Positions 17,977 through 64,000 of a DNA stretch of 64,000 bases are shown in pieces. This DNA comes from Inquilinus sp. Marseille-Q2685. GTDB taxonomy: Bacteria > Pseudomonadota > Alphaproteobacteria > DSM-16000 > Inquilinaceae. The notes beneath the pieces were generated by a model. The model saw only the letters and a program-made list of their open reading frames with translations, was not told the DNA's origin and made no database searches. Numbering within the stretch: position 1 is the first letter of the stretch; each line of letters begins with the position of its first letter. Where the stretch lies: contig NZ_CAKAKL010000012.1 of the NCBI RefSeq assembly GCF_916619195.1, forward strand, positions 1 to 64,000, given 5' to 3'. The position numbers and the translations under genes were made by a program.

Positions 17977-18301
17977 CGCCCTGCATCCCCTGTGTTTCCG
18001 CCGCCCATCCGCCTGCGGCCGAACCAGAATACCGTCTGTATTTAATTTGTCGACAGATTCGCCGAAAGCGAAGCGAGCCCTTCCGCAGCCGCATTGCACC
18101 GCAGCATTTCCTGCAAATCTATGTTGCAGTGCGAAATGGTACGATTATTCTCATCAGGTGCAGAGAGACGAGGCAACGCCCGACGGGCGGCTCGGTCTCG
18201 CCCTCTTTGGACCACATTTTACGGGCATTTGACCGGCCCGGCCCGATCGAGGCCGGGATCGAATGTCCGCTCAACAGGTGAAGGTTTACGGGAGCGATCC
18301 A
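17977..18301. other. Intergenic region with TGTCGACA palindrome
   Basis: This gap separates the DapA-family gene and a small hypothetical gene, which diverge. The AT-rich segment CTGTATTTAATTTGTCGACA (18036-18055) includes the palindrome TGTCGACA (18048-18055) and is placed to control the DapA-family gene. No gene was recognised. Confidence 0.4.
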
Positions 18302-18604
18302 ATGCCTGCCGTCAAGAATGTCCGCTATGTGACCAAGCGCGAGCTGCCGACGGTTGACGACGCGCTGTACGCCGCCGAGGGCCTGACCGCCGACTACGAG
18401 GAGCGGCTGCAGATCGCCGCCGAGCTGAGCGGCCTGTCGCTGGACGAGGTCCGCGCCGCGGCCGAGGCCCAGGCGGCGGAGATGGCCAAGAAGTCGACCC
18501 TGCGCATCACCTCGACCATCCGGTCGAACACCGGCAGCGCCGTGGTGGTGGAGCGCCGCCGGACCCGCAGCGTGGCGATGCCGCGTTCGCTGACCCTGGC
18601 CTGA
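18302..18604 (+). CDS. Hypothetical protein, basic, about 100 aa
   Basis: The protein is MPAVKNVRYVTKRELPTVDD... with an acidic helical middle (AAELSGLSLDEVRAAAEAQ) and a basic, Thr/Arg-rich end (VVVERRRTRSVAMPRSLTLA). I do not recognise the family. It is cytosolic with no membrane segment. GGGAGCG lies 5-6 nt before the ATG at 18302, which supports this start; an ATG at 18263 is in frame. A strong rho-independent terminator follows at 18645-18692, arguing that the gene is really expressed as a single unit. Confidence 0.6.
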   Translation: MPAVKNVRYVTKRELPTVDDALYAAEGLTADYEERLQIAAELSGLSLDEVRAAAEAQAAEMAKKSTLRITSTIRSNTGSAVVVERRRTRSVAMPRSLTLA

Positions 18605-18644
18605 ATTGCCGGACCCGGACGCTGCCCCGTCCGGCCAAGATTCG

Positions 18645-18692
18645 ATCCCGTGCCTGCCTGGCGTCGAGCGCCGCTGCGGGCACGGGATTTTT
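18645..18692 (+). terminator. Rho-independent terminator
   Basis: ATCCCGTGCC (18645-18654) pairs perfectly with GGCACGGGAT (18679-18688), and TTTT follows. A small GGCG...CGCC hairpin sits in the loop. It ends the transcript of the 100-aa gene. Confidence 0.85.
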
Positions 18693-18790
18693 GATTCCGG
18701 CAAACCGTTTCCGCCGGCCTTTCCCATCCAAGATCCGGCTCCATATGATCACAGCCGCGCCACCGCGCGACCGAGCGGAAGGGTCTTGCA

Positions 18791-51504: not shown

Positions 51505-52908
51505 CTACAGCTTGTATGCCGCCTTGGGCAGCCGGTAGGCGAGGTCGATCGCCACCTCGACCGCTTCCTCCTCGTCCAGCCGGTGCTCGGCCACCAGCTG
51601 GGCCAGGTAGCGGCAGTCGATGCGGCGGGCCACGTCGTGCCGCGCCGGGATCGACGGGAAGGCGCGGGTGTCGTCATTGAAGCCGACGGTGTTGTAGAAA
51701 CCGGCCGTCTCGGTCGCCAGCTCGCGGAAGCGCAGCATTCCCTCCGGGCTGTCGAAGAACCACCAGGGCGGGCCGAGCCGCAGCACGGGGTAATGCCCGG
51801 CCAGCGGCGCCAGCTCGCGCGCATAGGTGCTCTCGTCCAGCGTGAACAGGATCACCGACAGGTCGCGCTCGTTGCCGAAGCGGTCGAGCAGCGGCTTCAG
51901 CGCATGGACATAGTCGGTGCGGGTCGGGATGTCGGCGCCCTTGTCGCGGCCGAATTCGCGCTGCAGCGCCGGGTTGTGGTTGCGGAAGGAGCCGGGGTGG
52001 ATCTGCATCACGAGGCCGTCTTCCAGGCTCATCCGCGCCATCTCGGTCAGCATCTGGGCCCGGAACAGCTCGGCATCCTGCGGCTCGAAATGGCCGGAGA
52101 CGATCTTCTCGAACAGAGTCACCGCCGGCACCGGGTCGAGATCGGCCGTCGCCGCGGTCGGGTGGCCGTGGTCGGTCGAGGTCGCGCCCATCCCCTTGAA
52201 ATAGACACGGCGCTGCTGCAGGGCGGCCAGGTAGCCGCGCCAGGAATGGGTGTCCTCGCCGGTGATCTCGCCCAGCGTCTGCAGCCCCTCGCGGAAGCCG
52301 TCGAACTCCGGGTCCACCACCGGGTCGGGGCGGAAGGCGGTGACCACCCTGCCCTTCCAGCCGCTGTCGCGGATCGCGCGGTGATGGTCGAGCGGGTCCA
52401 GCGGCGATTCGGTGGTGGCGATGACCTCGAGGTTGAAGCGCTCGAACAGCGCCCGCGGCCGGTATTCCGGCCGCACCAGCCGCTCGGCGATGCGGTCGTA
52501 GATCCGGTCGGCGCTGGCCGGGGTCAGCCGCTCCTCCACCCCGAACAGGGTCTCGAAGGTGTGGTCGAGCCACATCCGGGTCGGGGTGCCGCGGAACAGG
52601 TGCCAATGCTCGGCGAAGCGGCGCCAGATCGCCCGCGAGTCGGTCTCGACCGGCCCGCCGTCGCGCCGCGGCACGCCGAGATCCTCCAGCCGCACCCCCT
52701 GGCTGTAGAGCATGCGGAAGATGTAGTGGTCCGGGATGATCAGCAGCGAGGCCGGGTCCGGGAACGCCTCGTTCTTCGCGTACCAAGCCGGGTCGGTGTG
52801 GCCGTGCGGGCTGATCAGCGGCAGCCCGGCGACCTCGGCATAGAGGCGCCGGGCGATGCCGCGCTGGGTCGGGTCCGGTGAAAAGAGACGGTCCGGATGG
52901 AGGCTCAT
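51505..52908 (-). CDS. uxaC: Glucuronate isomerase (uronate isomerase)
   Basis: This 467-aa amidohydrolase-fold enzyme interconverts uronates and keto-uronates. Metal-binding and substrate motifs include LISPHGHTDPAWYAKNE and RGTPTRMWLDHTFETLFGV, with PSIPARHDVARRIDC near the end. Length and order match UxaC, although PHGHTDP replaces the more common DYHCHL, so it belongs to a divergent subgroup that could act on a related sugar acid. It is the last gene of the minus-strand ABC/Gfo operon, overlapping the preceding Gfo gene by 4 bp. Confidence 0.88.
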   Translation of the reverse strand: MSLHPDRLFSPDPTQRGIARRLYAEVAGLPLISPHGHTDPAWYAKNEAFPDPASLLIIPDHYIFRMLYSQGVRLEDLGVPRRDGGPVETDSRAIWRRFAEHWHLFRGTPTRMWLDHTFETLFGVEERLTPASADRIYDRIAERLVRPEYRPRALFERFNLEVIATTESPLDPLDHHRAIRDSGWKGRVVTAFRPDPVVDPEFDGFREGLQTLGEITGEDTHSWRGYLAALQQRRVYFKGMGATSTDHGHPTAATADLDPVPAVTLFEKIVSGHFEPQDAELFRAQMLTEMARMSLEDGLVMQIHPGSFRNHNPALQREFGRDKGADIPTRTDYVHALKPLLDRFGNERDLSVILFTLDESTYARELAPLAGHYPVLRLGPPWWFFDSPEGMLRFRELATETAGFYNTVGFNDDTRAFPSIPARHDVARRIDCRYLAQLVAEHRLDEEEAVEVAIDLAYRLPKAAYKL

Positions 52909-53987
52909 GCGACGGCCTTCGGCTGCGGACGCCAATCGGCGTATTTGGGATGATCGCGGCCGATGGGCAAGTCGACGGCCGCGCCGGTCTCCGCAGAATG
53001 GAACAGCGCCGTCGCCAATTCCAGCGACCGGCGCGCATCGTCGAGCGTCACCGGCAGCGGACCGCCGCTCTCCAGCGCCGCGTGATAACGGCCGAGCTGG
53101 CCGGCGAAGCGCGACGGCACCGGCTCCCAGCCCGCCAGCACCTCTTCGATCCGCTGCGCGATCTCGGGCGAGGCCGGGATGATCTGCCAGGGGCCGTCGC
53201 CCGGGGCATAGGGCTTCAGCCCGCTCTCGAAGGTCACGTTCTCGAAGCAGAAGCGCAGCCGGCTGATCTCGACCTGCGACCCGAGGGTGGCGGCCAGCGA
53301 GACCAGGGCCCCGCTCTGCATCACCACGCTGGCCACGGCGCAATCCTCGACCTCGATCGGGTTCACCCGGGTCGCGGTGCGGCAGTAGACCGAGGCCACC
53401 GGTCCCAGCATCCAGGTCATGATGTCGTGCGAATGGATGGCATGGGTCAGCAGCACGCCGCCCAGCTCGGTGTCCAGCCGGCCGCGCCAGGGCACCGAAT
53501 AGTACGTCGCGCCGCGGTTCCAGTGCGTCTCCACCGTGGCCAGGTAAGGCTTGCCGGCGATTCCCGCGTCGACGATGCGCTTGGCCTGCTGCAGCCCGTC
53601 GCCGTAGCGGTACTGGAAGATCGGCATCACCCGGCCGGGGACCGCGGCCTCGGCCTTCACCACCCGGTCGAGATCGGCCAGCGACCCGACCAGCGGCTTC
53701 TCGCAGATCACCTGCTTGCCGGCCTCGAGCGCCGCCAGGATCTGGCCGATATGCACGGTCGGCGGGGTGCAGATGTCGACCACCTCGATCTCCGGCATGC
53801 GCAGGATCTCGTCGAAGCGGGTGGTCCGCACCGGGACATCGAACTCGTCGCCGATCTCGGCCAGGCGCTCCGGGTTCAGGTCGCAGATCGCGCCGACCCG
53901 GAACTTGTCGGGGTGGGCGGCATAGCCTTCGGCGATATGGCCGCGGCCGACGCCGAGGCCGATCACGGCAACGTTACGGATCGCCAT
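52905..53987 (-). CDS. Gfo/Idh/MocA family oxidoreductase
   Basis: This 360-aa NAD(P)-dependent sugar oxidoreductase has an N-terminal Rossmann domain (VAVIGLGVGRGHIAEGY), the conserved CEKPLVGSLAD (Lys of the EKP motif) near residue 97, and a C-terminal catalytic domain with HAIHSHDIMTWMLGPV, where the general His/Asp residues sit. It probably oxidises a sugar or sugar acid to a keto form. It is in the operon between another Gfo gene (2-bp gap) and uxaC. Confidence 0.9.
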   Translation of the reverse strand: MAIRNVAVIGLGVGRGHIAEGYAAHPDKFRVGAICDLNPERLAEIGDEFDVPVRTTRFDEILRMPEIEVVDICTPPTVHIGQILAALEAGKQVICEKPLVGSLADLDRVVKAEAAVPGRVMPIFQYRYGDGLQQAKRIVDAGIAGKPYLATVETHWNRGATYYSVPWRGRLDTELGGVLLTHAIHSHDIMTWMLGPVASVYCRTATRVNPIEVEDCAVASVVMQSGALVSLAATLGSQVEISRLRFCFENVTFESGLKPYAPGDGPWQIIPASPEIAQRIEEVLAGWEPVPSRFAGQLGRYHAALESGGPLPVTLDDARRSLELATALFHSAETGAAVDLPIGRDHPKYADWRPQPKAVA

Positions 53988-53989
53988 TC

Positions 53990-55006
53990 CTACGCCCTCC
54001 GTCCGGCGGCCGATTCCGCCATCGCCTGCGCCGTCAGCGCCAGCTCCATGGCCTTGAAACAGTGCTCCTGGCTCATCGCCGTCTCCGTCCGCTCCAGCAC
54101 GTCGGCGACCAGCTGCCGCCCGAAGGGGAGTTCCACGTTGCTGCAGTCGATCCGCTGCATGCCCTTCCCGTCGACCAGGATCAAATGGTCCGTGCCGGGC
54201 TGGCCGGTCGGGTCGATATATTTGCGCAGCTCGATGGTGCCCTCGGTGCCGAGGATGGTCAGCCGCCCGTCGCCCCAGGTCGGCAGCCCGTCCGGCGTGA
54301 ACCAGTCGATCCGGATGTAGCCGGTGGCGTCGGGGCTGCGCAGCAGCGCCTCGCCGAAATCCTGAAGCTCCGGCGTCTCTGGGTTGCCGCGGTTGGCGAC
54401 CGCGGCCGAGGCGACCTCGACGTCGAGCGTGCCGGCGAAGAACAGGAACTGCTCGAACTGGTGCGAGGCGATGTCGGTCAGGATGCCGCCGTAGCGGGCG
54501 CGCTTGAAGAACCAGTCCGGCCGCGTCTTGGCGTTCAGCCGGTGCGGCCCGAGGCCGACGGTGTTGATCACGCGGCCGATCGCCCCGGCCTGCACCAGCT
54601 GGCCCGCCTTGACGGTCGATCGTGTCTGGAAGTGCTCGGAATAGCAGATCGAGTAGATCCGGCCGGTCTCGGCCTGCACCCGCCGCACCTCGGCCAGCTG
54701 CTCCAGCGAGGTCATGCCCGGCTTGTCGGAGAGATAGTCCTTGCCGGCCTTCATCACGGTGATGCCGAGCGGCGCCCGGTCGGCCGGGATGCCGGCCGAG
54801 GTCACCAGCTTGATCGACGGGTCGTCCAGGATGGCGCGCGGGTCGGAGACGCGCTTGGCCTGCGGGTAGCGGGCCTGGAACGGGCCGGCGAGGTCGTCCT
54901 CCGGCGCGTGGAAGGCGACGAACTCGCCCCCAGCGCCGAGCAGCGCGTCGACCTGCCCGAAGATGTGGTTGTGGTTGATGCCGATGGCGGCGAAGCGGAT
55001 GGTCAT
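53990..55006 (-). CDS. Gfo/Idh/MocA family oxidoreductase, DKP variant
   Basis: This 338-aa protein has the Gfo/Idh/MocA fold with the nucleotide-binding start FAAIGINHNHIFGQ instead of the classical GxGxxG. DKPGMTSLEQL replaces the usual EKP, and RYGGILTDIASHQFEQFLF is the substrate-side motif. The altered loop may change cofactor preference or function. The start MTIRFAAIGINHNH follows CCGAATG-type sequence. It lies 14 bp after the ABC permease gene in the same operon. Confidence 0.88.
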   Translation of the reverse strand: MTIRFAAIGINHNHIFGQVDALLGAGGEFVAFHAPEDDLAGPFQARYPQAKRVSDPRAILDDPSIKLVTSAGIPADRAPLGITVMKAGKDYLSDKPGMTSLEQLAEVRRVQAETGRIYSICYSEHFQTRSTVKAGQLVQAGAIGRVINTVGLGPHRLNAKTRPDWFFKRARYGGILTDIASHQFEQFLFFAGTLDVEVASAAVANRGNPETPELQDFGEALLRSPDATGYIRIDWFTPDGLPTWGDGRLTILGTEGTIELRKYIDPTGQPGTDHLILVDGKGMQRIDCSNVELPFGRQLVADVLERTETAMSQEHCFKAMELALTAQAMAESAAGRRA

Positions 55007-55020
55007 TCGGGGGTCCCGGT

Positions 55021-55884
55021 TCAGCGTTTCATGCCGGTGGTGGCGACGCCTTCGATCAGAAGGCGCTGGAAGAACAGGAAGAAGAAGAACACCGGCAGCA
55101 GGGTCAGGACGGACATGGCGAACAGCGCGCTCCAGTCCGACTTGCCGGTCGAGTCGACGAAGTTCCTGAGGCCGAGCTGGACCGTGTAGGAGCCCATGTC
55201 GTTCAGGTAGATCAGGGGCGCGAAGAAGTCGTCCCAGGTCCAGATGAAGGAGAAGATCGCCGCCGTGGCCAGCACCGGCTTCGACAGCGGCAGGATGATC
55301 TTCCAGTAGATCGTCCAGGGCTTGCAGCCGTCCATCATCGCCGCTTCGTCCAGCTCGCGCGGGATGCCGCGGAAGAACTGCACCATCAGGAAGATGAAGA
55401 AGGCGTCGGAGGCCAGGTACTTCGGCACCACCAGCGGCAGGAAGGTGTCGACCCAGTCGAGGTTCAGGAACAGCACATACTGCGGGATCAGGGTCACGTG
55501 ATAGGGCAGCATCAGCGTGCCCAGCATCAGCGCGAACCAGAAGCCGCGGCCCGGGAAGCGCAGCCGGGCGAAGGCGAAGGCGGTCAGCGAGCAGGCGAAG
55601 ACGTTGCCGATCACCGACAGGACCGAGATCACCGCCGAGTTCCAGAAGAACTGGCCGAAGCTGATGTCGAGCCCGCTCCAGCCCCGGACATAGGCGTCGA
55701 GGCTGAAGCTCTCCGGCCACAGCGAGGCCGAGGAGAAGATCTGGCTGTCGTCCTTGAACGAGCTGGCGAGCATCCACAGCAGCGGATACAGCATCGCCAG
55801 CGAGCAGGCGCACAGCGCGATGTGGATCAGCAGCGACCGCGACAGCGGGCGGCGGGCGGGGCTCTCAAGAGTGATGTCACTCAT
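55021..55884 (-). CDS. Carbohydrate ABC transporter permease, MalG-like (CUT1)
   Basis: This 287-aa permease has six predicted helices and the CUT1 EAA loop LDEAAMMDGCKPWTIYWKIILP (about 200-222). The FLILMVQFF-like segment and LPYHVTLIPQYVLFLNLDW are typical. It works with the MalF-like permease (8-bp overlap) and the binding protein. No ATPase gene lies in the operon, so a shared MsiK-type ATPase encoded elsewhere would be needed. Confidence 0.92.
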   Translation of the reverse strand: MSDITLESPARRPLSRSLLIHIALCACSLAMLYPLLWMLASSFKDDSQIFSSASLWPESFSLDAYVRGWSGLDISFGQFFWNSAVISVLSVIGNVFACSLTAFAFARLRFPGRGFWFALMLGTLMLPYHVTLIPQYVLFLNLDWVDTFLPLVVPKYLASDAFFIFLMVQFFRGIPRELDEAAMMDGCKPWTIYWKIILPLSKPVLATAAIFSFIWTWDDFFAPLIYLNDMGSYTVQLGLRNFVDSTGKSDWSALFAMSVLTLLPVFFFFLFFQRLLIEGVATTGMKR

Positions 55885-56809
55885 CGTAATGCACCCAGTA
55901 GCGCGCCGAGAGGAAGGAGAAGGCGGTGAACAGCGCAATGATCACCACCAGCACCCAGGCCAGCGCCGAGGCGTAGCCCATGCGGAAATTGCTGAAGGCT
56001 TCCTGGTACAGATAGAGGGTGTAGAACAGGGTGGAGTCGATCGGCCCGCCCGTGCCCTCACTGATGATGAAGGCCGGGGTGAAGGCCTTGAACGCCTCGA
56101 TCGTCTGGATCACGGCGTTGAAGAACACCACCGGGGTCAGGAGCGGCAGGGTGATGCGCCAGAACCGGTGCCACGGACGGGCGCCGTCGATCGCTGCCGC
56201 CTCGTACAGGTCGCGCGGGATCTGCCGCAGGCCGGCGAGGAAGATGATCATCGGCGACCCGAACTGCCAGATGCTGAGGACGACCAGCGTCGACAGCGCG
56301 TAGTTCGGGTTGGAGATCCAGCTCGGCCCCTGGATGCCGAAGATGGCGAGGGCCTGGTTGATCAGCCCGTTGCCGGCGAAGAGCTGCCGCCACAGCACGG
56401 CGATGGCGACGCTCGCGCCCAGAAGGGACGGCAGGTAGAACAGGGCGCGGTACACCGGCAGGCCGGCGATGCCCTTGTTCAGCATCATCGCCACGCCGAG
56501 GGCGAAGGCCAGCTTCAAGGGCACCGCGAACAGCACGAACAGGAAGGTGACCTGCATCGAGGACAGGAACTTCGGATCGGCCGTGGCGATCCGGACGTAG
56601 TTCGCCGCCCCGACCCAGTTGGGGGCCTGCAGCAGGTCGAAATCGGTGAAGGACAGGTAGAGCGAGACCAGGATCGGCCCGGCCGTCAGGCCGATGAAGC
56701 CGATCAGCCATGGCGTCAGGAACAGATAGCCCGAGAGGGTGCGGGATGTGATCCGCCGCCTCCCCCGCGCCGGTTCCGCCCGCCCCGAGGCCTGCACCGC
56801 AATGGTCAT
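55877..56809 (-). CDS. Carbohydrate ABC transporter permease, MalF-like (CUT1)
   Basis: This 310-aa permease has a long basic N-terminus and six predicted helices. The EAA loop is YEAAAIDGARPWHRFWRITLPLL. LFLTPWLIGFIGLTAGPILVSL marks the first helix. It pairs with the MalG-like permease in one membrane complex for sugar uptake. It is separated from the binding-protein gene by 4 bp. Confidence 0.92.
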   Translation of the reverse strand: MTIAVQASGRAEPARGRRRITSRTLSGYLFLTPWLIGFIGLTAGPILVSLYLSFTDFDLLQAPNWVGAANYVRIATADPKFLSSMQVTFLFVLFAVPLKLAFALGVAMMLNKGIAGLPVYRALFYLPSLLGASVAIAVLWRQLFAGNGLINQALAIFGIQGPSWISNPNYALSTLVVLSIWQFGSPMIIFLAGLRQIPRDLYEAAAIDGARPWHRFWRITLPLLTPVVFFNAVIQTIEAFKAFTPAFIISEGTGGPIDSTLFYTLYLYQEAFSNFRMGYASALAWVLVVIIALFTAFSFLSARYWVHYDE

Positions 56810-56813
56810 GTCG

Positions 56814-58109
56814 TCACCCGCGATCGAGGATGCTGTTGGCTTCGTCGACGAACTGCTTGGCGCCGTCCGCCGGCGACGCCTGCTCGAAGCCGACCTGCTC
56901 GTTCACCCGCTTCAGCAGGAAGTTGATCTCGCCGGCGCCCTTCGGCGGCGACGGCGGCAGGTCGCCGACCTTGTCGGTGATGAAGGAGACGTAGTCGAGC
57001 ATCGCCCGGCTGAGCTCATCCAGCGTCGGCGCCACCGCTTCGCGCAGCGCCTTCGACGCCGGCACGCCGCGCTCGACGCCCAGCACCTTCCCGGCCTCGA
57101 CATCGGTGACGTAGAAGTTGGCGACCCGCACCGCCTCCTCGGCGACCTGGCTGCGCGCGGCGATGCTGAACAGCATCGACGGCTTCAGATACTGGCCGGG
57201 CTTGGCGCCGGGGCCGCCGCTCGGCTGCATCGTCATCTTCAGCTTGGTCTTGCTCAGCACCTGATGCGCCACCAGCTGGTTCGAGTTGGTGATGATCGCG
57301 GCGGAGTGGAGCAGAGCCAGCATGCTGGTCTCCGGCGACTGCTTGTCCAGCGCCTGGATGTCGGCCGGCGGGATCGCCTTCTTCTGGCGCAGCTCATGCC
57401 AGAAGCCGAACCACTCGGTCATCTCCTCGACGCCGAAGCCGGGGCGGCCCTCGGCGGTGTACAGCGCCTTGTCCTTCTGGCGCAGCCAGCAGTCGAGCGC
57501 CGGCTCGATGCCGCCGCAATCGCCGATGCCCCAGAACCCGTCGCGCTTGGAGGCCTGGGCGACCTTGAGCGACCAGTCGCCCCATTGCGCCCAGCTCCAG
57601 TCCCACTGCGGCTCCTCGACGCCGATCTGCTGCAGCGTCTCGGCGTCGTAGACGATGGCGGTGGAGTTGTTGCCGAGATTGACGCCGTAGAGCTTGCCCT
57701 CGACCCGTCCGCAATCGATCGCCGGCTTGCCGAAATCCTCGATCTTCAGCACCGACGGCAGGTATTCGTCGAGCGGCAGCAGCGCCCCGCGCCGGGCATA
57801 TTCGACGATGTAGCGGTAATCCATCTGGATCACGTCGGGCGCGTTGCGGCCGGCGGTCTGGGTGGCCAGGCGCGGCCAGTAGTCCGGCCAGCCCAGCGTC
57901 TCGCCGTTGATCGACGTACCCGGATGCGCGGCCTCGTACAGCTTGTTGACCTTGGCCGTGCGGTCGGCCCGCTCCTTCGAGCCCCACCAGAACATGCGCA
58001 CGCGCTTGTCCTGGGCCAGGGCCGGCATGGACAGCCCGGAAGCGGCCAGCCCGCCCAGGGCGGCGCCCAGCTGCAACACCTGCCTGCGGTTGGTGATCAG
58101 CCTCGCCAT
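56814..58109 (-). CDS. ABC transporter sugar-binding protein with twin-arginine signal
   Basis: This 431-aa periplasmic solute-binding protein of the CUT1 family has a Tat-type signal (NRRQVLQLGAALGGLAASG, cleavage near ALAQ). The mature start is VRMFWWGSKERADRTAKVN, and hydrophobic/aromatic binding residues lie in PQWDWSWAQWGDW. The C-terminal segment is FITDKVGDLPPSPPKGAGEI. The substrate is likely a sugar or oligosaccharide. It heads the six-gene operon; the ORF at 58169-58372 upstream repeats both of its ends. Confidence 0.92.
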   Translation of the reverse strand: MARLITNRRQVLQLGAALGGLAASGLSMPALAQDKRVRMFWWGSKERADRTAKVNKLYEAAHPGTSINGETLGWPDYWPRLATQTAGRNAPDVIQMDYRYIVEYARRGALLPLDEYLPSVLKIEDFGKPAIDCGRVEGKLYGVNLGNNSTAIVYDAETLQQIGVEEPQWDWSWAQWGDWSLKVAQASKRDGFWGIGDCGGIEPALDCWLRQKDKALYTAEGRPGFGVEEMTEWFGFWHELRQKKAIPPADIQALDKQSPETSMLALLHSAAIITNSNQLVAHQVLSKTKLKMTMQPSGGPGAKPGQYLKPSMLFSIAARSQVAEEAVRVANFYVTDVEAGKVLGVERGVPASKALREAVAPTLDELSRAMLDYVSFITDKVGDLPPSPPKGAGEINFLLKRVNEQVGFEQASPADGAKQFVDEANSILDRG

Positions 58110-58168
58110 CTCGTGTTCCTCCTGTCGATCGCGCCTCTTCTCTCCGAAGGCGCTGGGTGATGTCGGGG

Positions 58169-58372
58169 TCAGCTGCGGCCGAGGATGGCGGCAGCCTCGC
58201 CGGCGCCCTCGGGCGGCGGCGCAATCCTGTCGGCTATGAAGTGGGTGTCGTCGGGTCCGGCCCGATCCGGCGCCGCGAGCCCGGGCGCGATCGTCACGCG
58301 AGCCCTGGCGAGACCGGCGACGCCGATCCCGACCTCCAGGGCGTGCCTGCGGGTCAACCGCAGCGGCGTCAT
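58169..58372 (-). pseudogene. Remnant of a second sugar-binding protein: Tat signal joined to its tail
   Basis: The 67-aa frame begins MTPLRLTRRHALEVGIGVAG, a twin-arginine-type signal like that of the adjacent binding protein. It ends HFIADRIAPPPEGAGEAAAIL then GRS, which lines up with FITDKVGDLPPSPPKGAGE and ILDRG at the end of the neighbouring 431-aa binding protein. The whole middle is missing. It is best explained as a duplicated binding-protein gene with a large in-frame internal deletion; a functional mini-protein cannot be excluded. It lies directly downstream of the operator at 58479. Confidence 0.55.
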
Positions 58373-58478
58373 CGCGTTCCTCCTGATGCCCCGCCCCGTC
58401 GATCGGCGCGGCGTTGCAAGCGGTGGTCGGTTGGTGCCTGAAGCAGGCCTTCGACCGAAGGCCGGCGAGACGATGTTA

Positions 58479-58492
58479 TAACCAGTTGGTTA
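58479..58492. promoter_or_regulatory. TetR operator 1 of the sugar-acid island
   Basis: TAACCA-GT-TGGTTA is a perfect 6-bp inverted repeat with 2-bp spacer. It lies in the divergent region between the ABC operon and the TetR gene and matches the site at 59310-59323 except in the spacer. Confidence 0.75.
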
Positions 58493-58580
58493 CAAGCTAG
58501 ATCGATGCGATGATGGCTGTCAACACGAACCCCGGCAGCGACGCTGCGTCGCCTCCGGCCCTGATCGAGGCCGCCACACC

Positions 58581-59261
58581 GTGAGCATCAGCGACGAGAC
58601 CATCGACGCCCCGACGAAAGATAAAGCGAAACGCCCCGCCACCAAGGCCGTGCGCGACCCGGAGCGCACCAGCGCCGCGATCCTGGCCGCCGCGGTGAAG
58701 GAGTTCATGGAGAAAGGCTACAGCGGCGCACGGATCAACGAAATCGCCAAGCGCGCCGGCGCCAACAAGCGCATGCTGTACCATTATTTCGGCGACAAGG
58801 AGGCCCTGTACCTGGCGGTGCTGGAGGGCGCCTATGTCGCCATCCGCTCGGCCGAGAGCAAGCTGCACCTGGCCGATCACGACCCGGTCGACGGCATCCG
58901 CGAGCTCGCCCTGTTCACCTGGCGGTACTTCATCGAACACCCGGAATTCCTGAGCCTGCTGCAGACCGAGAACCTGATGAAGGCGCGGCACCTGAAGCGT
59001 TCCGCCCGGATCTTCGACCTGCATTCGCCGCTGGTCGCGGTGATCTCCGACCTCCTGAAGCGCGGCGCCGCCAAGGGCGTGTTCCGGGCCGACGCCGATC
59101 CGGTGAAGGTCTATGTCAGCATCGCCTCGCTGGGCGCCTTCTACCTGTCGAACCGCTACACCCTGTCGACCATCTTCCGGCGCGAGCTGACCGAACCCAA
59201 GGCCCTGGCCGAATGGGGCGAGCACATCGCCCAGATGATCCTGGCTTCGCTGCGCCCCTGA
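58581..59261 (+). CDS. TetR/AcrR family regulator of the sugar-acid island
   Basis: This 226-aa TetR-type regulator has the N-terminal helix-turn-helix ILAAAVKEFMEKGYSGARI, then NEIAKRAGANKRMLYHYFGDKEALY (about residues 35-80). The C-terminal domain has FFIEHPEFLSLLQTEN-type features of the TetR_C group found with sugar catabolic genes. The start is a GTG at 58581. Two identical-arm palindromes flank it (58479 and 59310), one in front of each operon, so it probably represses both and its own gene. Confidence 0.9.
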   Translation: MSISDETIDAPTKDKAKRPATKAVRDPERTSAAILAAAVKEFMEKGYSGARINEIAKRAGANKRMLYHYFGDKEALYLAVLEGAYVAIRSAESKLHLADHDPVDGIRELALFTWRYFIEHPEFLSLLQTENLMKARHLKRSARIFDLHSPLVAVISDLLKRGAAKGVFRADADPVKVYVSIASLGAFYLSNRYTLSTIFRRELTEPKALAEWGEHIAQMILASLRP

Positions 59262-59309
59262 TCCGTACCGCGGCCTCTTGACGCGCAGGCCCGTTCCGTG
59301 GTCGGCTAG

Positions 59310-59323
59310 TAACCATCTGGTTA
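59310..59323. promoter_or_regulatory. TetR operator 2 of the sugar-acid island
   Basis: TAACCA-TC-TGGTTA has the same arms as operator 1. It sits 44 bp before the ATG of the Gfo/Idh/MocA gene that opens the plus-strand operon. Confidence 0.75.
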
Positions 59324-59367
59324 CAACAAGGCCGGGGATTCTGCCCGTGCCGCAACGGGAGGGAAGA

Positions 59368-60519
59368 ATGGCCACCCAGCGCCTCGGCCTCATCATGCAC
59401 GGCGTCACCGGCCGGATGGGCTACAACCAGCATCTGGTGCGTTCGATCTGCGCCATCCGCGACCAGGGCGGCGTGCCGCTGCCCAACGGCGACAAGGTCC
59501 TGCCCGACCCGATCCTGGTCGGCCGCAACGCGGAGAAGGTCGAACAGCTGGCCAAGCGCCACGGCATCGCCCGCTGGAGCGACAGCCTCGACCAGGCCCT
59601 GGCCAATCGCGACGACACCGTGTTCTTCGACGCCGGCTCGACCCAGATGCGGGCGGAGCTGCTGACCCGCGCCATCGACGCCGGCAAGCATGTCTATTGC
59701 GAGAAGCCGATCTCCGAGACGTTGGAGGTGGCGACGAAGCTGGCCCGCCACGCCGACGCCCGCGGCATCCGCCACGGCGTGGTCCAGGACAAACTGTATC
59801 TGCCGGGGCTGCAGAAGATCCGCATGCTGCGCGACTCCGGCTTCTTCGGCCGGATCTTCGCGGTGCGCGGCGAGTTCGGCTACTGGGTGTTCGAGGGCGA
59901 CTGGCAGCCGGCGCAGCGGCCCAGCTGGAACTACCGCAAGGCCGATGGCGGCGGCATCATCCTCGACATGCTGTGCCACTGGCGCTACGTGCTGGACAAC
60001 CTGTTCGGCGAGGTGAAGTCGGTCAGCTGCCTCGGCGCCACCCATATCCCGGAGCGGGTGGACGAGAACGGCAAGCGCTACGCCGCCGATGCCGACGATG
60101 CCGCCTACGCCACCTTCCAGCTCGAAGGCTGCGTGGTCGCCCACATCAACTCCTCCTGGGCCGTGCGGGTGCGGCGCGACGACCTGGTCACCTTCCAGGT
60201 CGACGGCACCCATGGCTCGGCGGTGGCCGGGCTGACCCGCTGCTTCACCCAGCACCGGGTGAACACGCCGCGGCCGGTGTGGAACCCGGACCAGCCGCAG
60301 ACCATGAAGTTCCTCGACCAGTGGGAAGAGGTGCCGGACAACGTCGTCTACGACAACGGCTTCAAGGCGCAGTGGGAGGACTTCATCCGCCACGTCGTCG
60401 CCGGCACGCCCTGGAAGTACACGCTGTGGGAGGGCGTGAAGGGCGTGCAGCTGGCCGAGGCCGGGCTGCAGAGCTGGGCCGAGCGGCGCTGGATCGACCT
60501 GCCGGCGCTGGAGCGCTGA
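59368..60519 (+). CDS. Gfo/Idh/MocA family oxidoreductase, first gene of the plus operon
   Basis: This 383-aa NAD(P)-dependent oxidoreductase has a Rossmann start (LGLIMHGVTGRMGYNQHL), the Lys-containing YCEKPISETLEVA at about residue 110 and the catalytic-domain motif KADGGGIILDMLCHWRYVLDNLF. It would oxidise a sugar or sugar acid. The ATG at 59368 is preceded by GGGAGGGAAGA. The DUF993 gene follows after 3 bp. Confidence 0.9.
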   Translation: MATQRLGLIMHGVTGRMGYNQHLVRSICAIRDQGGVPLPNGDKVLPDPILVGRNAEKVEQLAKRHGIARWSDSLDQALANRDDTVFFDAGSTQMRAELLTRAIDAGKHVYCEKPISETLEVATKLARHADARGIRHGVVQDKLYLPGLQKIRMLRDSGFFGRIFAVRGEFGYWVFEGDWQPAQRPSWNYRKADGGGIILDMLCHWRYVLDNLFGEVKSVSCLGATHIPERVDENGKRYAADADDAAYATFQLEGCVVAHINSSWAVRVRRDDLVTFQVDGTHGSAVAGLTRCFTQHRVNTPRPVWNPDQPQTMKFLDQWEEVPDNVVYDNGFKAQWEDFIRHVVAGTPWKYTLWEGVKGVQLAEAGLQSWAERRWIDLPALER

Positions 60520-60522
60520 GCC

Positions 60523-61692
60523 ATGGCTTCCTTGACGCTCCCCCGCGCCGGTGGCGGTCTCGAGAGCTACAACATCAAGAACGCGCCGCTGCCGATCCCG
60601 GCGCCGGGCAGCGCCCCGGCCTTCAGCCGGGTCGCCTATGCCGCGGCACATGTCGTGGCCGACCCGCTGGCCGACAACGATCCCTGGCTGGACGCCGCGG
60701 TCGACTGGGACCGCACCATCGCGTTCCGCCACTATCTCTGGGACCTCGGCCTTGGCGTGGCCGAGGCGATGGACACTGCCCAGCGCGGCATGGGGCTGGA
60801 CTGGCCGACCGCCAAGGCGCTGATCGGCCGGGCCCTGGCCGGGGCGAAGGAGCGGCCGGGCGCGGTGATCGCCTGCGGCGCCGGCACCGACCACCTGCCG
60901 CCCGGCCCCGGCGTCACCATCGCCGACGTGATCGCCGCCTATGAGCAGCAGATCGAAGCGGTGGAAGGCCTGGGCGGCCGGGTGATCCTGATGGCCAGCC
61001 GGGCCCTGGCCACAGCGGCCAAGGGGCCGGACGACTATGTCCGGGTCTATGGCCGGATTCTGGGCCAAGTGAAGCAGCCGGTGATCCTGCACTGGCTGGG
61101 CGAGATGTTCGACCCGGCCCTGGCCGGCTATTGGGGCGATGCCGACCACGACCGGGCGATGGACACCTGCCTGGCCGTGATCCGAGACAGCGCCGCCAAG
61201 GTCGACGGCATCAAGATCTCGCTGCTGTCGAAGGAGAAGGAGATCGCGATGCGCCGCCGGCTGCCGGCGGGCGTGCGCATGTACACCGGCGACGACTTCA
61301 ACTATGCCGAGCTGATCGCCGGCGACGAGCACGGCTATTCCGATGCCCTCCTCGGCATCTTCGACGCCATCGCCCCCGCCGCCTCGGCCGGGCTGGCGCG
61401 GCTGACCGCCGGGGACGAGGCCGGGTTCCACGATATCCTGGCGCCGACCGTGCCGCTGAGCCGGCACATCTTCAAGGCGCCGACCCGCTTCTACAAGACG
61501 GGGGTCGTGTTCCTGGCCTATCTCAACGGCCTGCAGGACCATTTCCTGATGATCGGCGGCCAGCAGAGCACCCGGTCGCTGCCGCATCTGGCCGAGCTGT
61601 TCCGCCTGGCCGACACCGCCCGCGTGCTGCGCGACCCGGACCTGGCCGTGCATCGCATGCGCAAGGTGCTGGCGCTGGGCGGGGTGGAATAG
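60523..61692 (+). CDS. DUF993 family protein, aldolase-like
   Basis: This 389-aa protein of the DUF993 family is distantly related to DapA-type TIM barrels. Characteristic stretches are FRHYLWDLGLGVAEAMDTAQRGMGLDW, ACGAGTDHLPPGPGVTIADV and the lysine in VDGIKISLLSKEKEIAMRR, a candidate Schiff-base position. PTRFYKTGVVFLAYLNGLQDHFLMIGGQQSTRS follows. No reaction is established in knowledge available to me; position in a sugar-acid operon between dehydrogenase and dehydratase genes suggests C-C cleavage (inference). Confidence 0.85.
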   Translation: MASLTLPRAGGGLESYNIKNAPLPIPAPGSAPAFSRVAYAAAHVVADPLADNDPWLDAAVDWDRTIAFRHYLWDLGLGVAEAMDTAQRGMGLDWPTAKALIGRALAGAKERPGAVIACGAGTDHLPPGPGVTIADVIAAYEQQIEAVEGLGGRVILMASRALATAAKGPDDYVRVYGRILGQVKQPVILHWLGEMFDPALAGYWGDADHDRAMDTCLAVIRDSAAKVDGIKISLLSKEKEIAMRRRLPAGVRMYTGDDFNYAELIAGDEHGYSDALLGIFDAIAPAASAGLARLTAGDEAGFHDILAPTVPLSRHIFKAPTRFYKTGVVFLAYLNGLQDHFLMIGGQQSTRSLPHLAELFRLADTARVLRDPDLAVHRMRKVLALGGVE

Positions 61693-61698
61693 AAGATC

Positions 61699-63114
61699 GT
61701 GACCGCCCCCCGCTTGCGCGTCGTCGAGGCCCGGCTGTATGAGCGGCCGGTGCGGTTCCGGCTGCCCTTCCGCTTCGGCGCCGCCACCGTCACCGGCGCG
61801 CCGCAGGCCTTCCTGCGGCTGACGGTCGAGGCCGCGGACGGCCGCCGGGCCGAGGGGCAAGCGGCCGAGCTGATGGTGCCGAAATGGTTCGACAAGAACC
61901 CGGCCCTGACCGAGGCGCAAAACTTCGACCAGCTGCGCCGGTCGCTCGCCATCGCCCGCCCCTTCTACCTGGAAGCGCCCCCGGCCCCGGTCTTCGCCCT
62001 GAGCGCCGCGATCGAGCCGCGCCAGCACGCGGCCTGCGCGGCGGAGGGGCTGGGAGGGCTGATCGCCTCCTTCGGCCTCGCCCTGTTCGACCGCGCCGTG
62101 ATCGACGCGCTGTGCCGGATCGATGGGATCGACGCGGTCACGGCGGTGCGGGCCAACCGGATCGGGCTGACCGCCGCCACCGCGCCGGACCTCGGCGATT
62201 TCGATCTGGACCGGTTCCTGGCCGGGCTGTCGCCGGCCGACCACATCCACGCCCGGCACACGGTCGGCCTGGCCGACCCGATCACCACCGCCGAGATCGC
62301 CGATCGGCTCGACGACGGGCTGCCGCAGAGCCTGGAGCAGGCGATCGCCGCCTATCGCCACACCCATTTCAAGCTGAAGCTGAGCGGCAAGGCCGATTCC
62401 GACCTGGACCGGCTGCGCCGGATCGCCGCCGTGCTGGAGCGGCTGCCGGACTATCGCGTCACCCTGGACGGCAACGAGACCTTCGCCGAGGCCGGGCCGG
62501 TCGCCGAGTTCTGGGACCGCCTCAAGGCCGATCCCGCCCTGGCCCGGCTGCGATCCGCGGTGCTGTTCCTGGAGCAGCCGATCGCCCGCGCCCGGGCGCT
62601 GGCCGAGCCGATCCACGCTTTGGCCGAGCGCATACCGGTCGAGATCGACGAATCGGATGCCGAGATCGGCGTGTTCCCGCGCGCCCGCGCCCTGGGCTAT
62701 CGCGGCGTGTCGTCGAAATCCTGCAAGGGGTTCTACCGGTCGCTGCTGAACCGGGCCCGGATCGCCAAGTGGAGCGCCGAGGACGGCGGCCGCTACTTCC
62801 TGTCGGCCGAGGATCTGACCACCCAGGGCGGCGTCGCCCTGCAGCAGGACCTGGTGCTGGCGGCGCTGGGCGGCACCGGCCATGTCGAGCGCAACGGCCA
62901 CCACTATGTCGACGGCATGGCCGGCGCCCCGGCGGCGGAGCAGCGCGCCTTCCTGGCCGCCCACCCCGACCTCTACGCCGACGCCGGCGGCCGCGCGCGC
63001 CTCGCCATCCGCGACGGACGCCTGGCCATCGGCTCGGTGCTGGCCGCGCGCGGGCTGGGCACGGCCCTCACCCCCGACTGGTCGGCCATGGCCGACGGAT
63101 TCCTGGAGACCTGA
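61699..63114 (+). CDS. Enolase-superfamily dehydratase (mandelate racemase-like)
   Basis: This 471-aa protein has the two-domain enolase-superfamily layout: an N-terminal capping domain and a barrel. Lysines lie in THFKLKLSGKADSD, the first metal ligand in VTLDGNETF, the second in VLFLEQPIARA and the third in VEIDESDAEIG. A further lysine sits in YRGVSSKSCKGFYRS. The arrangement fits a sugar-acid dehydratase or epimerase. It is longer than typical members, with about 60 extra residues near the N-terminus. The start is GTG at 61699, 6 bp after the DUF993 stop. Confidence 0.85.
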   Translation: MTAPRLRVVEARLYERPVRFRLPFRFGAATVTGAPQAFLRLTVEAADGRRAEGQAAELMVPKWFDKNPALTEAQNFDQLRRSLAIARPFYLEAPPAPVFALSAAIEPRQHAACAAEGLGGLIASFGLALFDRAVIDALCRIDGIDAVTAVRANRIGLTAATAPDLGDFDLDRFLAGLSPADHIHARHTVGLADPITTAEIADRLDDGLPQSLEQAIAAYRHTHFKLKLSGKADSDLDRLRRIAAVLERLPDYRVTLDGNETFAEAGPVAEFWDRLKADPALARLRSAVLFLEQPIARARALAEPIHALAERIPVEIDESDAEIGVFPRARALGYRGVSSKSCKGFYRSLLNRARIAKWSAEDGGRYFLSAEDLTTQGGVALQQDLVLAALGGTGHVERNGHHYVDGMAGAPAAEQRAFLAAHPDLYADAGGRARLAIRDGRLAIGSVLAARGLGTALTPDWSAMADGFLET

Positions 63115-63116
63115 CC

Positions 63117-63944
63117 ATGGCCGAGGGCCTGTCCATCAACCTCGCCACCGTCCGCCAGCAATGGGACATGCGCCAGGCGGCCGAGGCCTGCCTGGGGCAC
63201 GGCATCACCGCCATCGCCCCCTGGCGCGACCAGGTGCAGAAGATCGGCCTGGCCGAGGCGGCGCGGATCGTGCGCGACAACGCCTTCCAGGTCACCGGCC
63301 TGTGCCGCGGCGGCATGTTCCCGGCCGGCGACCCGGAGGCGCGGAAGGCCGCGATCGACGACAATCTGCGCGCGGTGGACGAGGCGGCAGCGCTGGGCGC
63401 GGACTGCCTGGTGCTGGTGGTCGGCGGCCTGCCGCAGGGCTCGCGCGACATCGGCGCCGCGCGGCAGATGGTGGCCGACGGCATCGCCGCCATCCTGCCA
63501 CATGCCCGGGCCAGCGGCATCCCGCTGGCGATCGAGCCGCTGCACCCGATGTACGCGGCCGACCGCGCCTGCGTGAACACGCTGAAGCAGGCGCTGGACA
63601 TCTGCGACCTGCTGGGCGAGGGCATCGGCGTCGCCATCGACGTCTACCACGTCTGGTGGGACCCGGAGCTGATGCCGCAGATCGCCCGGGCCGGCGCCGA
63701 GGGGCGCATCCTGGCGCATCACATCTGCGACTGGCTGGTGCCGACCAGGGACCTGCTGCTGGACCGCGGCATGATGGGCGACGGGGTGATCGACCTGCGC
63801 GGCATCCGCGCCGCGATCGAGGCCGCCGGCTTCGCCGGCCCGCAGGAGGTCGAGATCTTCTCGGCCGAGACTTGGTGGAAGCGCCCGGGCGACGAGGTGC
63901 TGAAGACCTGCATCGAGCGGTATGAGACGCATTGCACGCTGTAA
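63117..63944 (+). CDS. Sugar phosphate isomerase/epimerase (xylose isomerase-like TIM barrel)
   Basis: This 275-aa AP-endonuclease-2 family TIM barrel has metal-binding residues at LAIEPLHPMY (Glu), VAIDVYHVWWD (Asp, His), HHICDWLVP (His, Asp) and QEVEIFS (Glu). LSINLATVRQQWDMRQAAEACLGHGITAIAPWRDQ is the first strand and helix. It would isomerise or epimerise a keto-sugar. Its ATG is 2 bp after the dehydratase TGA, so it is coupled in the operon. Confidence 0.9.
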   Translation: MAEGLSINLATVRQQWDMRQAAEACLGHGITAIAPWRDQVQKIGLAEAARIVRDNAFQVTGLCRGGMFPAGDPEARKAAIDDNLRAVDEAAALGADCLVLVVGGLPQGSRDIGAARQMVADGIAAILPHARASGIPLAIEPLHPMYAADRACVNTLKQALDICDLLGEGIGVAIDVYHVWWDPELMPQIARAGAEGRILAHHICDWLVPTRDLLLDRGMMGDGVIDLRGIRAAIEAAGFAGPQEVEIFSAETWWKRPGDEVLKTCIERYETHCTL

Positions 63945-63976
63945 TGGGCACCGTGTAACGGGGTCTGGAGGCGGAA

Positions 63977-64000
63977 ATGGGCAAGACGAGGGTCGCGCTG
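63977..64000 (+). CDS. Start of a further gene of the plus operon (partial)
   Basis: ATG at 63977 follows GGAGGCGGAA, a strong ribosome binding site. Only eight codons (MGKTRVAL) are present. The hydrophobic beginning would fit another Rossmann-fold oxidoreductase, but this is a guess. Confidence 0.5.

Follow-up and report, generated by a model that had tools for sequence, protein, structure and literature searches.

Two divergent operons occupy positions 51,505 to 64,000 of the window, by which we mean the whole 64,000-nucleotide stretch of Inquilinus sp. Marseille-Q2685 DNA that was analysed. The genes and sites of this island are as follows.

51505–52908, − strand: UxaC, glucuronate/uronate isomerase (PF02614, 243.5 bits), a genus-specific part
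52905–53987, − strand: GfoA, Gfo/Idh/MocA oxidoreductase (PF01408, 2.1e-21)
53990–55006, − strand: GfoB, Gfo/Idh/MocA oxidoreductase (PF22725, 1.5e-17)
55021–55884, − strand: CUT1-type ABC permease, UgpE/MalG-like (PF00528, 9.3e-20; UgpE/MalG matches sub-threshold)
55877–56809, − strand: CUT1-type ABC permease, UgpA/MalF-like (PF00528, 3.8e-14; UgpA/MalF matches sub-threshold)
56814–58109, − strand: extracellular solute-binding protein (PF01547/PF13416, 1.7e-15)
58478–58493, divergent promoter region: operator-like palindrome ATAACCAGTTGGTTAC (1 mismatch)
58581–59261, + strand: TetR-family regulator (PF17938, 1.8e-41; PF00440, 4.1e-17)
59309–59324, upstream of GfoC: operator-like palindrome GTAACCATCTGGTTAC (0 mismatches)
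59368–60519, + strand: GfoC, core Gfo/Idh/MocA dehydrogenase (PF22725, PF02894 and PF01408 above cut-offs)
60523–61692, + strand: DUF993, core DHDPS-fold protein (PF06187, 623.7 bits)
61699–63114, + strand: enolase-superfamily protein, MLE/epimerase-like, accessory (fold matches; no Pfam match at 0.001)
63117–63944, + strand: core xylose-isomerase-like (XI) TIM barrel (PF01261, 2.1e-38, 132.9 bits, cut-off 31.1)
63977–64000, + strand: GfoD, fourth Gfo/Idh/MocA enzyme, start only (runs on to contig 65200)

Every gene named in the original prediction was found among the window ORFs or by profile searches, and the island is thus real; the count of three Gfo enzymes did not stand, since the gene cut off at the window edge encodes a fourth (contig 63977–65200). 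By eye, a DMT-type permease gene lies 3′ of GfoD and the N-terminus of the solute-binding protein (NRRQVLQ) resembles a twin-arginine signal, and no ABC ATPase gene turned up in the island ORF list. The best NCBIfam match of the TetR protein is RutR, below threshold (55.6 bits, cut-off 368). Because an identical gene order, UxaC included, recurs in all three further genomes from this genus whose loci were compared (80–98% identity), the order of the island is not due to chance.

A core of GfoC, DUF993 and XI is conserved across genomes

Linkage was evaluated in the best 80 of 594 loci ranked by DUF993 similarity (flanks up to 10 kb), a choice biased to close relatives, and in the 59 full-flank loci that remain once 21 loci with short flanks are set aside. 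Counts were taken from tblastn because the GC-based ORF picker loses real genes (XI in 58 of 82 loci, compared to 77 of 80 by tblastn). Among the full-flank loci from these best 80, GfoC was found in 58 of 59, DUF993 (on which the choice of loci rests) and XI in 59 of 59 and TetR in 52 of 59, with the enolase-like gene present in 29 of 59 and missing from the other 30. Across the best 80 of 594, matches were obtained for GfoA in 14 loci, GfoB in 9, GfoD in 15, the UgpE/MalG-like permease in 18, and the UgpA/MalF-like permease and solute-binding protein in 20 each; uptake genes differ between these loci, some of which carry tricarboxylate-type or NMT1-type importers. A second group of clusters (class-2) joins DUF993–XI to an SDR and a CoA-transferase, mostly with an acyl-CoA dehydrogenase and an enoyl-CoA hydratase and in some cases with a glycerate kinase; three of the five records with annotation show that kinase next to DUF993.

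A draw independent of similarity covered 289 genomes of the taxonomic class, 28 of them with DUF993 (29 loci, 1.5 kb each side); it includes the window genome, where just the first 24 XI residues fall inside the locus. Of these 29 loci, 20 have GfoC upstream of DUF993 and 20 have an XI-like gene downstream of it, the latter a figure in which XI is scored absent wherever it is pushed past 1.5 kb, as mostly happens when an enolase-like gene follows DUF993. At the level of the phylum, 42 of 397 genomes carry DUF993. GfoC, the upstream class-2 SDR and a downstream XI-like gene are all absent within 1.5 kb at 5 of 29 class loci (one locus being incomplete) and at 8 of 30 phylum loci (30 of 46 matches covered), and DUF993 therefore has other contexts too. 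GfoC, DUF993 and XI form the conserved core, joined by TetR; these three enzymes are found together in many soil bacteria, and the neighbourhood comparison bore out the proposal of a single catabolic island whose DUF993 linkage is kept in the loci of other genomes.

UxaC behaves differently in the genus and beyond it. The protein scores 578.8 bits against the glucuronate isomerase model NF002794 (cut-off 387), is encoded in single copy in its own genome and lies on the DUF993 contig in 6 of 6 genus genomes; in another genome of the same family (G010) it lies ~13 kb from DUF993. By tblastn it was found in 0 of 80 related loci (flanks up to 10 kb; best 80 of 594), and its candidacy as a core step of the whole module was rejected on that count. 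We keep UxaC as a genus-specific part of the island. The suggestion that its PHGHTDP motif marks an unusual substrate fell away, as SPHGHTDP is common to UxaC and the solved 'Uronate isomerase' 2q01 (1.4e-195) and UxaC's model score is that of an ordinary glucuronate isomerase.

A shared palindrome suggests common regulation

The palindrome GTAACCA-NN-TGGTTAC occurs twice in the window: at 58478, in the gap separating the two operons, and at 59309, ahead of GfoC. It was picked after looking, from an 18-mer scan in which it ranked 20 by mean score behind GC-rich words; with at least 14 matches it was found in 33 of 77 loci, whereas each of the other top-25 words reached at most 15. Allowing up to 2 mismatches, 66 sites were found in 45 of 88 related loci, compared to 0, 0 and 2 in dinucleotide shuffles and 0–3 for five control palindromes. 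At 3 mismatches, 109 sites were observed versus 9–12 in shuffles and 21–47 for other palindromes, and since controls are common at this level we used only the stricter sites. Placement is likewise uneven: 2 of the 109 sites with up to 3 mismatches lie inside island genes, which span 28% of the loci, and 50 of 51 sites with up to 2 mismatches in full-flank loci (from the best 80 of 594) lie upstream of DUF993. Similar palindromes stand upstream of the solute-binding protein/TetR genes and upstream of GfoC in related loci, and the motif is recognisable in 1 of 17 loci with NMT1-type importers, mostly from Bradyrhizobium (from the best 80 of 594).

These sites make the island look like one regulatory unit with shared operator-like sequences, and we infer TetR as the binder of both palindromes. 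Within its own genome, the motif with at most 1 mismatch occurs at 6 places, versus 3 for the reversed control, and an exact copy at position 92955 of contig C3 adjoins a LacI gene. Three of six class-2 records carry sites with up to 2 mismatches (L101, L108 and L109, none with an annotated TetR in the stretch fetched), two carry 3-mismatch sites only (L104 and L105) and L106 carries none; in both L101 and L109 the palindrome sits between aldo-keto reductase and CoA-transferase genes and between aldo-keto reductase and acyl-CoA dehydrogenase genes. Given the copy beside LacI and those in TetR-less class-2 stretches, the island TetR may not be the sole reader.

Structural features of the island enzymes

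DUF993 matches PDB 4dnh (1.3e-187), and its predicted model (pLDDT 85.1) aligns with its best DHDPS rows at Z 28–28.4 and 2.4–2.5 Å over ~284 residues. In this model K231 lies on barrel strand 6 (227–232) in a GIK motif, shared with the DHDPS/NAL superfamily along with the barrel fold; the lysine does not vary among 29 divergent members, and across 87 its conservation is at least 98%. DUF993 differs from that superfamily in being ~95 residues longer, at 11–18% identity in the listed rows. The strand-5 tyrosine of DHDPS is catalytic, but DUF993 has invariant H190/W191 on strand 5 (187–191) where DapA has YN, a strand-level correspondence, and MDTAQRG in place of DapA GTTGE, matched by strand order only. 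A DUF993–DapA hhalign comparison was not significant (probability 0.1, E 0.51), its weak alignment pairing K231 with the DapA lysine, and none of the 10 own-genome matches of the dapA model (TIGR00674) falls at DUF993 (C12:60523–61692). The predicted fold and the strand-level placement support DUF993 as a DHDPS-type fold with K231 as candidate Schiff-base lysine, in keeping with the original proposal of such a residue.

GfoC matches PDB 3oqb (1.2e-189) and GfoB matches 3u3x (5.8e-135), both titled simply 'Oxidoreductase'. K113, D200 and H204 of GfoC are at least 98% conserved (77 sequences); a K/D/H motif is catalytic in Gfo/Idh/MocA enzymes. XI matches 3ju2 (SMc04130; 1.2e-136), and also 3qc0 and 7vpf, and in 81 sequences conservation reaches at least 98% at E141, D176, H203, E245 and E247, which would include metal ligands.

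The predicted model of the enolase-like protein (pLDDT 91.1) has fold matches at Z 27–30, the best being dipeptide epimerases and muconate-lactonizing enzymes (MLE), with mandelate-racemase-subgroup rows following within ~1.5 Z. Invariant residues comprise KxK (225/227), D257, E292, D317 and K340/K343; the KxK pair, the later-strand lysine and the top fold matches point to an MLE-type branch. Dehydration by this protein thus became less probable, with epimerase/MLE-like folds best and the gene often missing elsewhere. The proposed order of uptake, oxidation, isomerisation, dehydration and cleavage is accordingly not established, because UxaC is not core and the dehydratase role of the enolase-like protein is argued against.

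Proposed pathway and alternative readings

On balance, though little beyond even chances, we favour an inducible, non-phosphorylative island under TetR control that breaks down an unphosphorylated polyhydroxy compound, with GfoC, XI and DUF993 as core and Schiff-base cleavage by DUF993. As substrate class, a sugar acid, or a sugar or cyclitol oxidised to its keto form, is the likeliest; we infer each reaction, the step order and the substrate. GfoC would use NAD(P)+ to turn an alcohol into a ketone, XI with a divalent metal would isomerise, epimerise or dehydrate an α-hydroxyketone, before or after cleavage, and DUF993 would form a Schiff base via K231 and break the keto compound into smaller pieces (or dehydrate it). 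Side enzymes, and uptake systems that can replace one another, would supply this core, whose intake the CUT1 importer, GfoA, GfoB, GfoD, UxaC and the MLE-type enolase-superfamily enzyme would broaden in this genus.

Several other routes were weighed against this one. IolE is also XI-like, and IolG with IolE forms a dehydrogenase and XI-like pair that GfoC and XI parallel; on a cyclitol route of this kind, which we think unlikely, GfoC would turn a cyclitol or cyclic polyol into an inosose-like ketone, XI would dehydrate it and DUF993, standing in for the ThDP-dependent IolD, would open or cleave the cyclic dione. Among NCBIfam models, inositol 2-dehydrogenase fits GfoA, GfoC and GfoD best, but its scores, sub-threshold in each (103.9, 71.6 and 87.8 bits, with 38.1 for GfoB; cut-off 355), reflect similarity at the general Gfo level, inspection of the island ORFs by eye brought up nothing like IolB, IolC or IolD, and UxaC in the genus points to uronates. 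Similarly generic are the matches that would speak for levoglucosan, a C-glycoside or a 3-keto-disaccharide as substrate: the levoglucosan dehydrogenase model stays below its cut-off of 650 for GfoA, GfoB, GfoC and GfoD (72.9, 36.4, 70.4 and 54.9 bits), and DgpA (7xr9) is among the PDB matches of GfoA and GfoC. Here a Gfo enzyme would make the 3-keto sugar, XI would eliminate or hydrolyse the glycosidic bond to release it and DUF993 would cleave it. Although the CUT1 sugar importer suits such a scheme, the tricarboxylate-type importers of other loci fit glycosides poorly and inspection by eye revealed neither a DUF1080 nor a DgpB-like gene in the island, and we consider it quite improbable.

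An ordinary uronate pathway, near the original prediction, would have UxaC yield fructuronate or tagaturonate, a Gfo enzyme reduce this to an aldonate, the enolase-like protein dehydrate it to 2-keto-3-deoxygluconate and DUF993 act as aldolase on that product. Its case is the confident, single-copy UxaC, whose ATG overlaps the GfoA stop (ATGA) and whose linkage to DUF993 holds throughout the genus and, more loosely, in G010; but the absence of UxaC from all of the best 80 related loci (flanks up to 10 kb) and an enolase-like protein that is MLE/epimerase-like and missing from half of the full-flank loci leave it with a rather poor chance. To a new lyase family we give similarly little credence: DUF993 would catalyse retro-aldol cleavage of an unphosphorylated hexuluronate or keto-aldonate to dihydroxyacetone and tartronate semialdehyde (or hydroxypyruvate), XI would isomerise the cleavage product and glycerate kinase would capture it, with class-2 DUF993 performing the same cleavage on a different substrate and under a similar operator. 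Hints towards it are the glycerate kinase next to class-2 DUF993, the palindromes in the L101 and L109 gene gaps and the class-2 XI of L105, whose only NCBIfam match at 1e-10 is hydroxypyruvate isomerase, far below cut-off (43.8 bits, cut-off 353). Class-2 clusters were also compared with the deoxyribonate pathway, which has glycerate kinase and acyl-CoA steps (PMC6365646); the term dihydrodipicolinate is absent from the main text of that paper.

Relation to known systems

Like the oxidative, non-phosphorylative Weimberg and Dahms pathways, the island has a dehydrogenase and a DHDPS-like protein and no kinase recognised in it. Those pathways rely on a dedicated dehydratase, frequently with a lactonase as well, whereas the constant partner in the island is an XI-like protein. 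L-Glucose and L-galactose pathways via hexuluronates (PMC12632266) similarly combine dehydrogenases with an IolO-like 4-epimerase towards tagaturonate, but in the available text they end in KDG kinase and KDPG aldolase and DUF993 is unnamed. A further XI-like protein in one related locus (L053) has a weak IolO match (89.1 bits, cut-off 300). UxaC and IolO-like proteins, found in separate island variants, both act on hexuluronates, a hint in the direction of the lyase reading.

The available part of PMC9007349 holds no match to the gene set, and in the literature searched, which left most subscription journals outside, nothing was found on DUF993/PF06187/IPR009334 or related to five PDB codes. 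The statement that no named pathway has this set agrees with that search: the kinds of enzyme are familiar, and the GfoC–XI–DUF993 combination has no described pathway there. DUF993, fairly common in class and phylum, hereby gains usual partners, a likely catalytic lysine and a candidate operator.

By numbering and by synteny with three Ensifer loci, S. meliloti SMc04129–SMc04139 is the same island, although the Ensifer loci lack UxaC. PDB entry 4dnh is SMc04132 and 3ju2 is SMc04130, and the remaining assignments would follow from Ensifer gene order. In the accessible parts of the literature found, no function is assigned to SMc04129–SMc04139, and the PDB listing gives no specific function for the solved core-protein homologues 4dnh, 3oqb and 3ju2. 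These structures and S. meliloti as test organism make the pathway directly testable. Independent data for the favoured reading come from S. meliloti proteomics, which places SMc04132, SMc04133, SMc04135, SMc04138 and SMc04139 in one co-expression module (PMC12542648); SMc04130, SMc04131, SMc04134, SMc04136 and SMc04137 go unmentioned in the text of that paper, which counts against it. A predicted network includes SMc04134 among its transcription factors (PMC11387232).

Gene content and layout

The island at the end of the window is a real, conserved catabolic locus and is probably co-regulated; oxidative catabolism involving a Schiff-base-lyase fold is a known general kind, of which this gene set is a new variant. 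Any substrate, step order or individual reaction assigned to it is putative. All genes named in the original prediction are present in the window, arranged outward from a divergent promoter region:

Minus strand: binding protein, two permeases, GfoB, GfoA, uronate isomerase (UxaC)
Plus strand: TetR, GfoC, DUF993, enolase-superfamily protein, xylose-isomerase-like protein (XI), fourth Gfo
Contig 63977-65200, plus strand: GfoD, the fourth Gfo, interrupted by the window end

The gene previously described only as cut off is GfoD, the fourth Gfo/Idh/MocA oxidoreductase (GfoA-GfoD). The UxaC start codon lies within the GfoA stop codon (ATGA). No ABC ATPase gene turned up among the island's listed ORFs; a MalK-type ATPase is present in at least one related locus (L056). 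Directly beyond the island (contig 67543-69855, minus strand; 17543-19855 of fetched locus L002) lies a long ORF; by eye, its many glycine/aspartate-rich repeats make it resemble RTX calcium-binding proteins.

A conserved core with exchangeable uptake parts

Conservation was evaluated in the best 80 of 594 confirmed DUF993 relatives from named genomes, which are close relatives by construction; 59 of these loci had complete 10-kb flanks (full-flank loci). The expected DUF993 neighborhood recurred, with GfoC in 58/59 and XI in 59/59 full-flank loci, and TetR in 52/59. The proposed linkage to an enolase-superfamily gene held less generally, this gene being found in just 29/59 of them. Across the best 80, CUT1 permeases occurred in 18–20 loci, GfoD in 15, GfoA in 14, GfoB in 9 and UxaC in none (flanks up to 10 kb). 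In a broader draw at class level, DUF993 was found in 28 of 289 genomes, window genome included (29 loci, examined with 1.5 kb flanks), with GfoC upstream in 20/29, a short-chain dehydrogenase (SDR) instead in 2/29, an XI-like gene downstream in 20/29 (the window genome's own locus contributing just 24 XI residues) and none of the three in the expected place in 5/29. At phylum level, 42 of 397 genomes carried DUF993 (46 matches), and among 30 matches examined, GfoC and an XI-like gene were both present in 22, and none of these partners (SDR included) in 8.

The uptake genes vary around this core. Full-flank neighborhoods (among the best 80 of 594) were CUT1-type (16), NMT1/THI5-type ABC (17), tripartite tricarboxylate-type (TTT; 11), mixed (4) or other (11), and a Paroceanicella plasmid shows the order TTT transporter-TetR-XI-enolase-Gfo-DUF993-XI. 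Because the core remains constant while the uptake step varies, this pattern suggests that several compounds enter it.

UxaC is a feature of the genus: three further genomes of the genus that were compared (L196-L198) show the complete island order, with UxaC in place, UxaC and DUF993 share one contig in 6/6 genomes of the genus searched, and UxaC lies ~13 kb away in one genome from another genus of the family (L199). Its PHGHTDP motif had been read as divergence signaling an unusual substrate; this reading falls away, as UxaC is ordinary by model score and has the motif in common with 2q01.

Predicted functions of the core enzymes

The original prediction proposed a cleavage step for DUF993 through a possible Schiff-base lysine, and structure prediction agreed in returning a DHDPS-like fold. 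The best fold match of the predicted model was 4dnh (SMc04132; Z 52.2), followed among the matches listed by DHDPS enzymes (Z 27–28, 11–18% identity). K231 lies on strand 6 of the model and is invariant in an alignment of 29 divergent members, including the second class of clusters described below. However, strand 5 carries His190/Trp191 where DapA of related genomes has YN, and profile-profile comparison with DapA gave no significant sequence relation. Taken together, these features indicate a protein that, judging from its modeled fold, plausibly acts like a Schiff-base lyase and is not a DHDPS. The literature searched, whose coverage leaves out most subscription journals, yielded no publication naming DUF993. 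Distant from the island, window 17116-17955 (minus strand) matches the dapA model below its cut-off (163.6 bits), one of ten dapA-model matches in the genome.

The enolase-superfamily protein, previously proposed as a dehydratase, conserves the KxK and later-strand lysine, and its top fold matches are instead dipeptide epimerases and muconate-lactonizing enzymes. Candidate catalytic residues are conserved in GfoC, as are candidate metal ligands in XI; their nearest solved structures (3oqb for GfoC; 3ju2, 3qc0 and 7vpf for XI) have no specific tested function given in the structure listing. The S. meliloti counterparts of GfoC and of the TetR protein are probably SMc04133 and SMc04134, with 3oqb being a homologue of the former.

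A second class of DUF993 clusters

Class-2 clusters (L101, L104, L105, L106 and L109), in which DUF993 is joined by XI-like, SDR and CoA-transferase genes, were characterized from five annotated plasmid records (Paracoccus, S. meliloti pSymA, Caballeronia, Sagittula and Rhodococcus). Their DUF993, 54–60% identical to that of the window, immediately precedes the XI-like gene. CoA-transferase and SDR-type genes occur in 5/5 records, acyl-CoA dehydrogenase in 4/5 (absent from Caballeronia), enoyl-CoA hydratase in 4/5 (absent from Rhodococcus) and glycerate kinase in 3/5, a putative acyl-CoA-linked catabolic route. This gene content points to DUF993 and XI as the minimal unit, accompanied by a dehydrogenase of either Gfo or SDR type. 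An Arthrobacter record has an oxidoreductase immediately before DUF993, with XI not annotated. Elsewhere, DUF993 accompanies LacI-type regulators in three loci (L182 by Pfam; L181 and L184 by eye), with a CoA-transferase gene nearby in L182 and a DUF4147/MOFRL (glycerate-kinase-type) gene and an SDR in L184.

A shared operator-like palindrome

Scanning intergenic sequence of the window against related loci revealed a palindrome (GTAACCA-NN-TGGTTAC), with one copy in the gap separating the divergent operons and one ahead of GfoC; for this AT-rich motif, chosen after looking, two window copies compare with 0.24 expected, and 3/100 shuffles reach two. Across 88 loci, 66 sites with up to two mismatches occurred in 45 loci, versus 0, 0 and 2 in dinucleotide shuffles and 0–3 for five control palindromes. 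Since the controls became common at three mismatches (21–47 versus 109 observed), only the stricter sites were counted. Within full-flank loci (among the best 80 of 594), 50 of 51 sites lie upstream of DUF993, and sites were present in 16/16 CUT1-type, 8/11 TTT-type, 4/4 mixed and 7/11 other loci, and in only 1/17 NMT1-type loci. Among class-2 records, 3/6 carry the palindrome, and its two divergent-gap positions are shared by L101 and L109; the fetched stretches of these three records have no annotated TetR gene. RutR is the best NCBIfam match of the island TetR protein, below threshold, and the half-sites resemble the RutR operator.

In S. meliloti, five proteins encoded on both strands of the matching locus fall in one proteomic co-expression module and were detected in TY and not in low-phosphate medium (PMC12542648); five other island members looked for by name do not appear in that text.

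Elsewhere in the window's own genome, the palindrome also precedes two more genes for solute-binding proteins. A LacI gene is transcribed divergently from one of them, and LacI may be an additional or alternative reader of the palindrome. One of the two binding-protein genes (L118, contig C13; 8451-9752, minus strand), encoding a second Tat-type binding protein, has two one-mismatch copies (C13:109798 and 109889) ahead of it and ThuA and DUF2264 genes after it; downstream, no gene for a CUT1-type permease was recognized, and on its other side lies what is, by eye, an amino-acid-type permease gene. The other (L117, contig C3) encodes a third binding protein; an exact palindrome copy (C3:92955) lies between it and the divergently oriented LacI-family gene.
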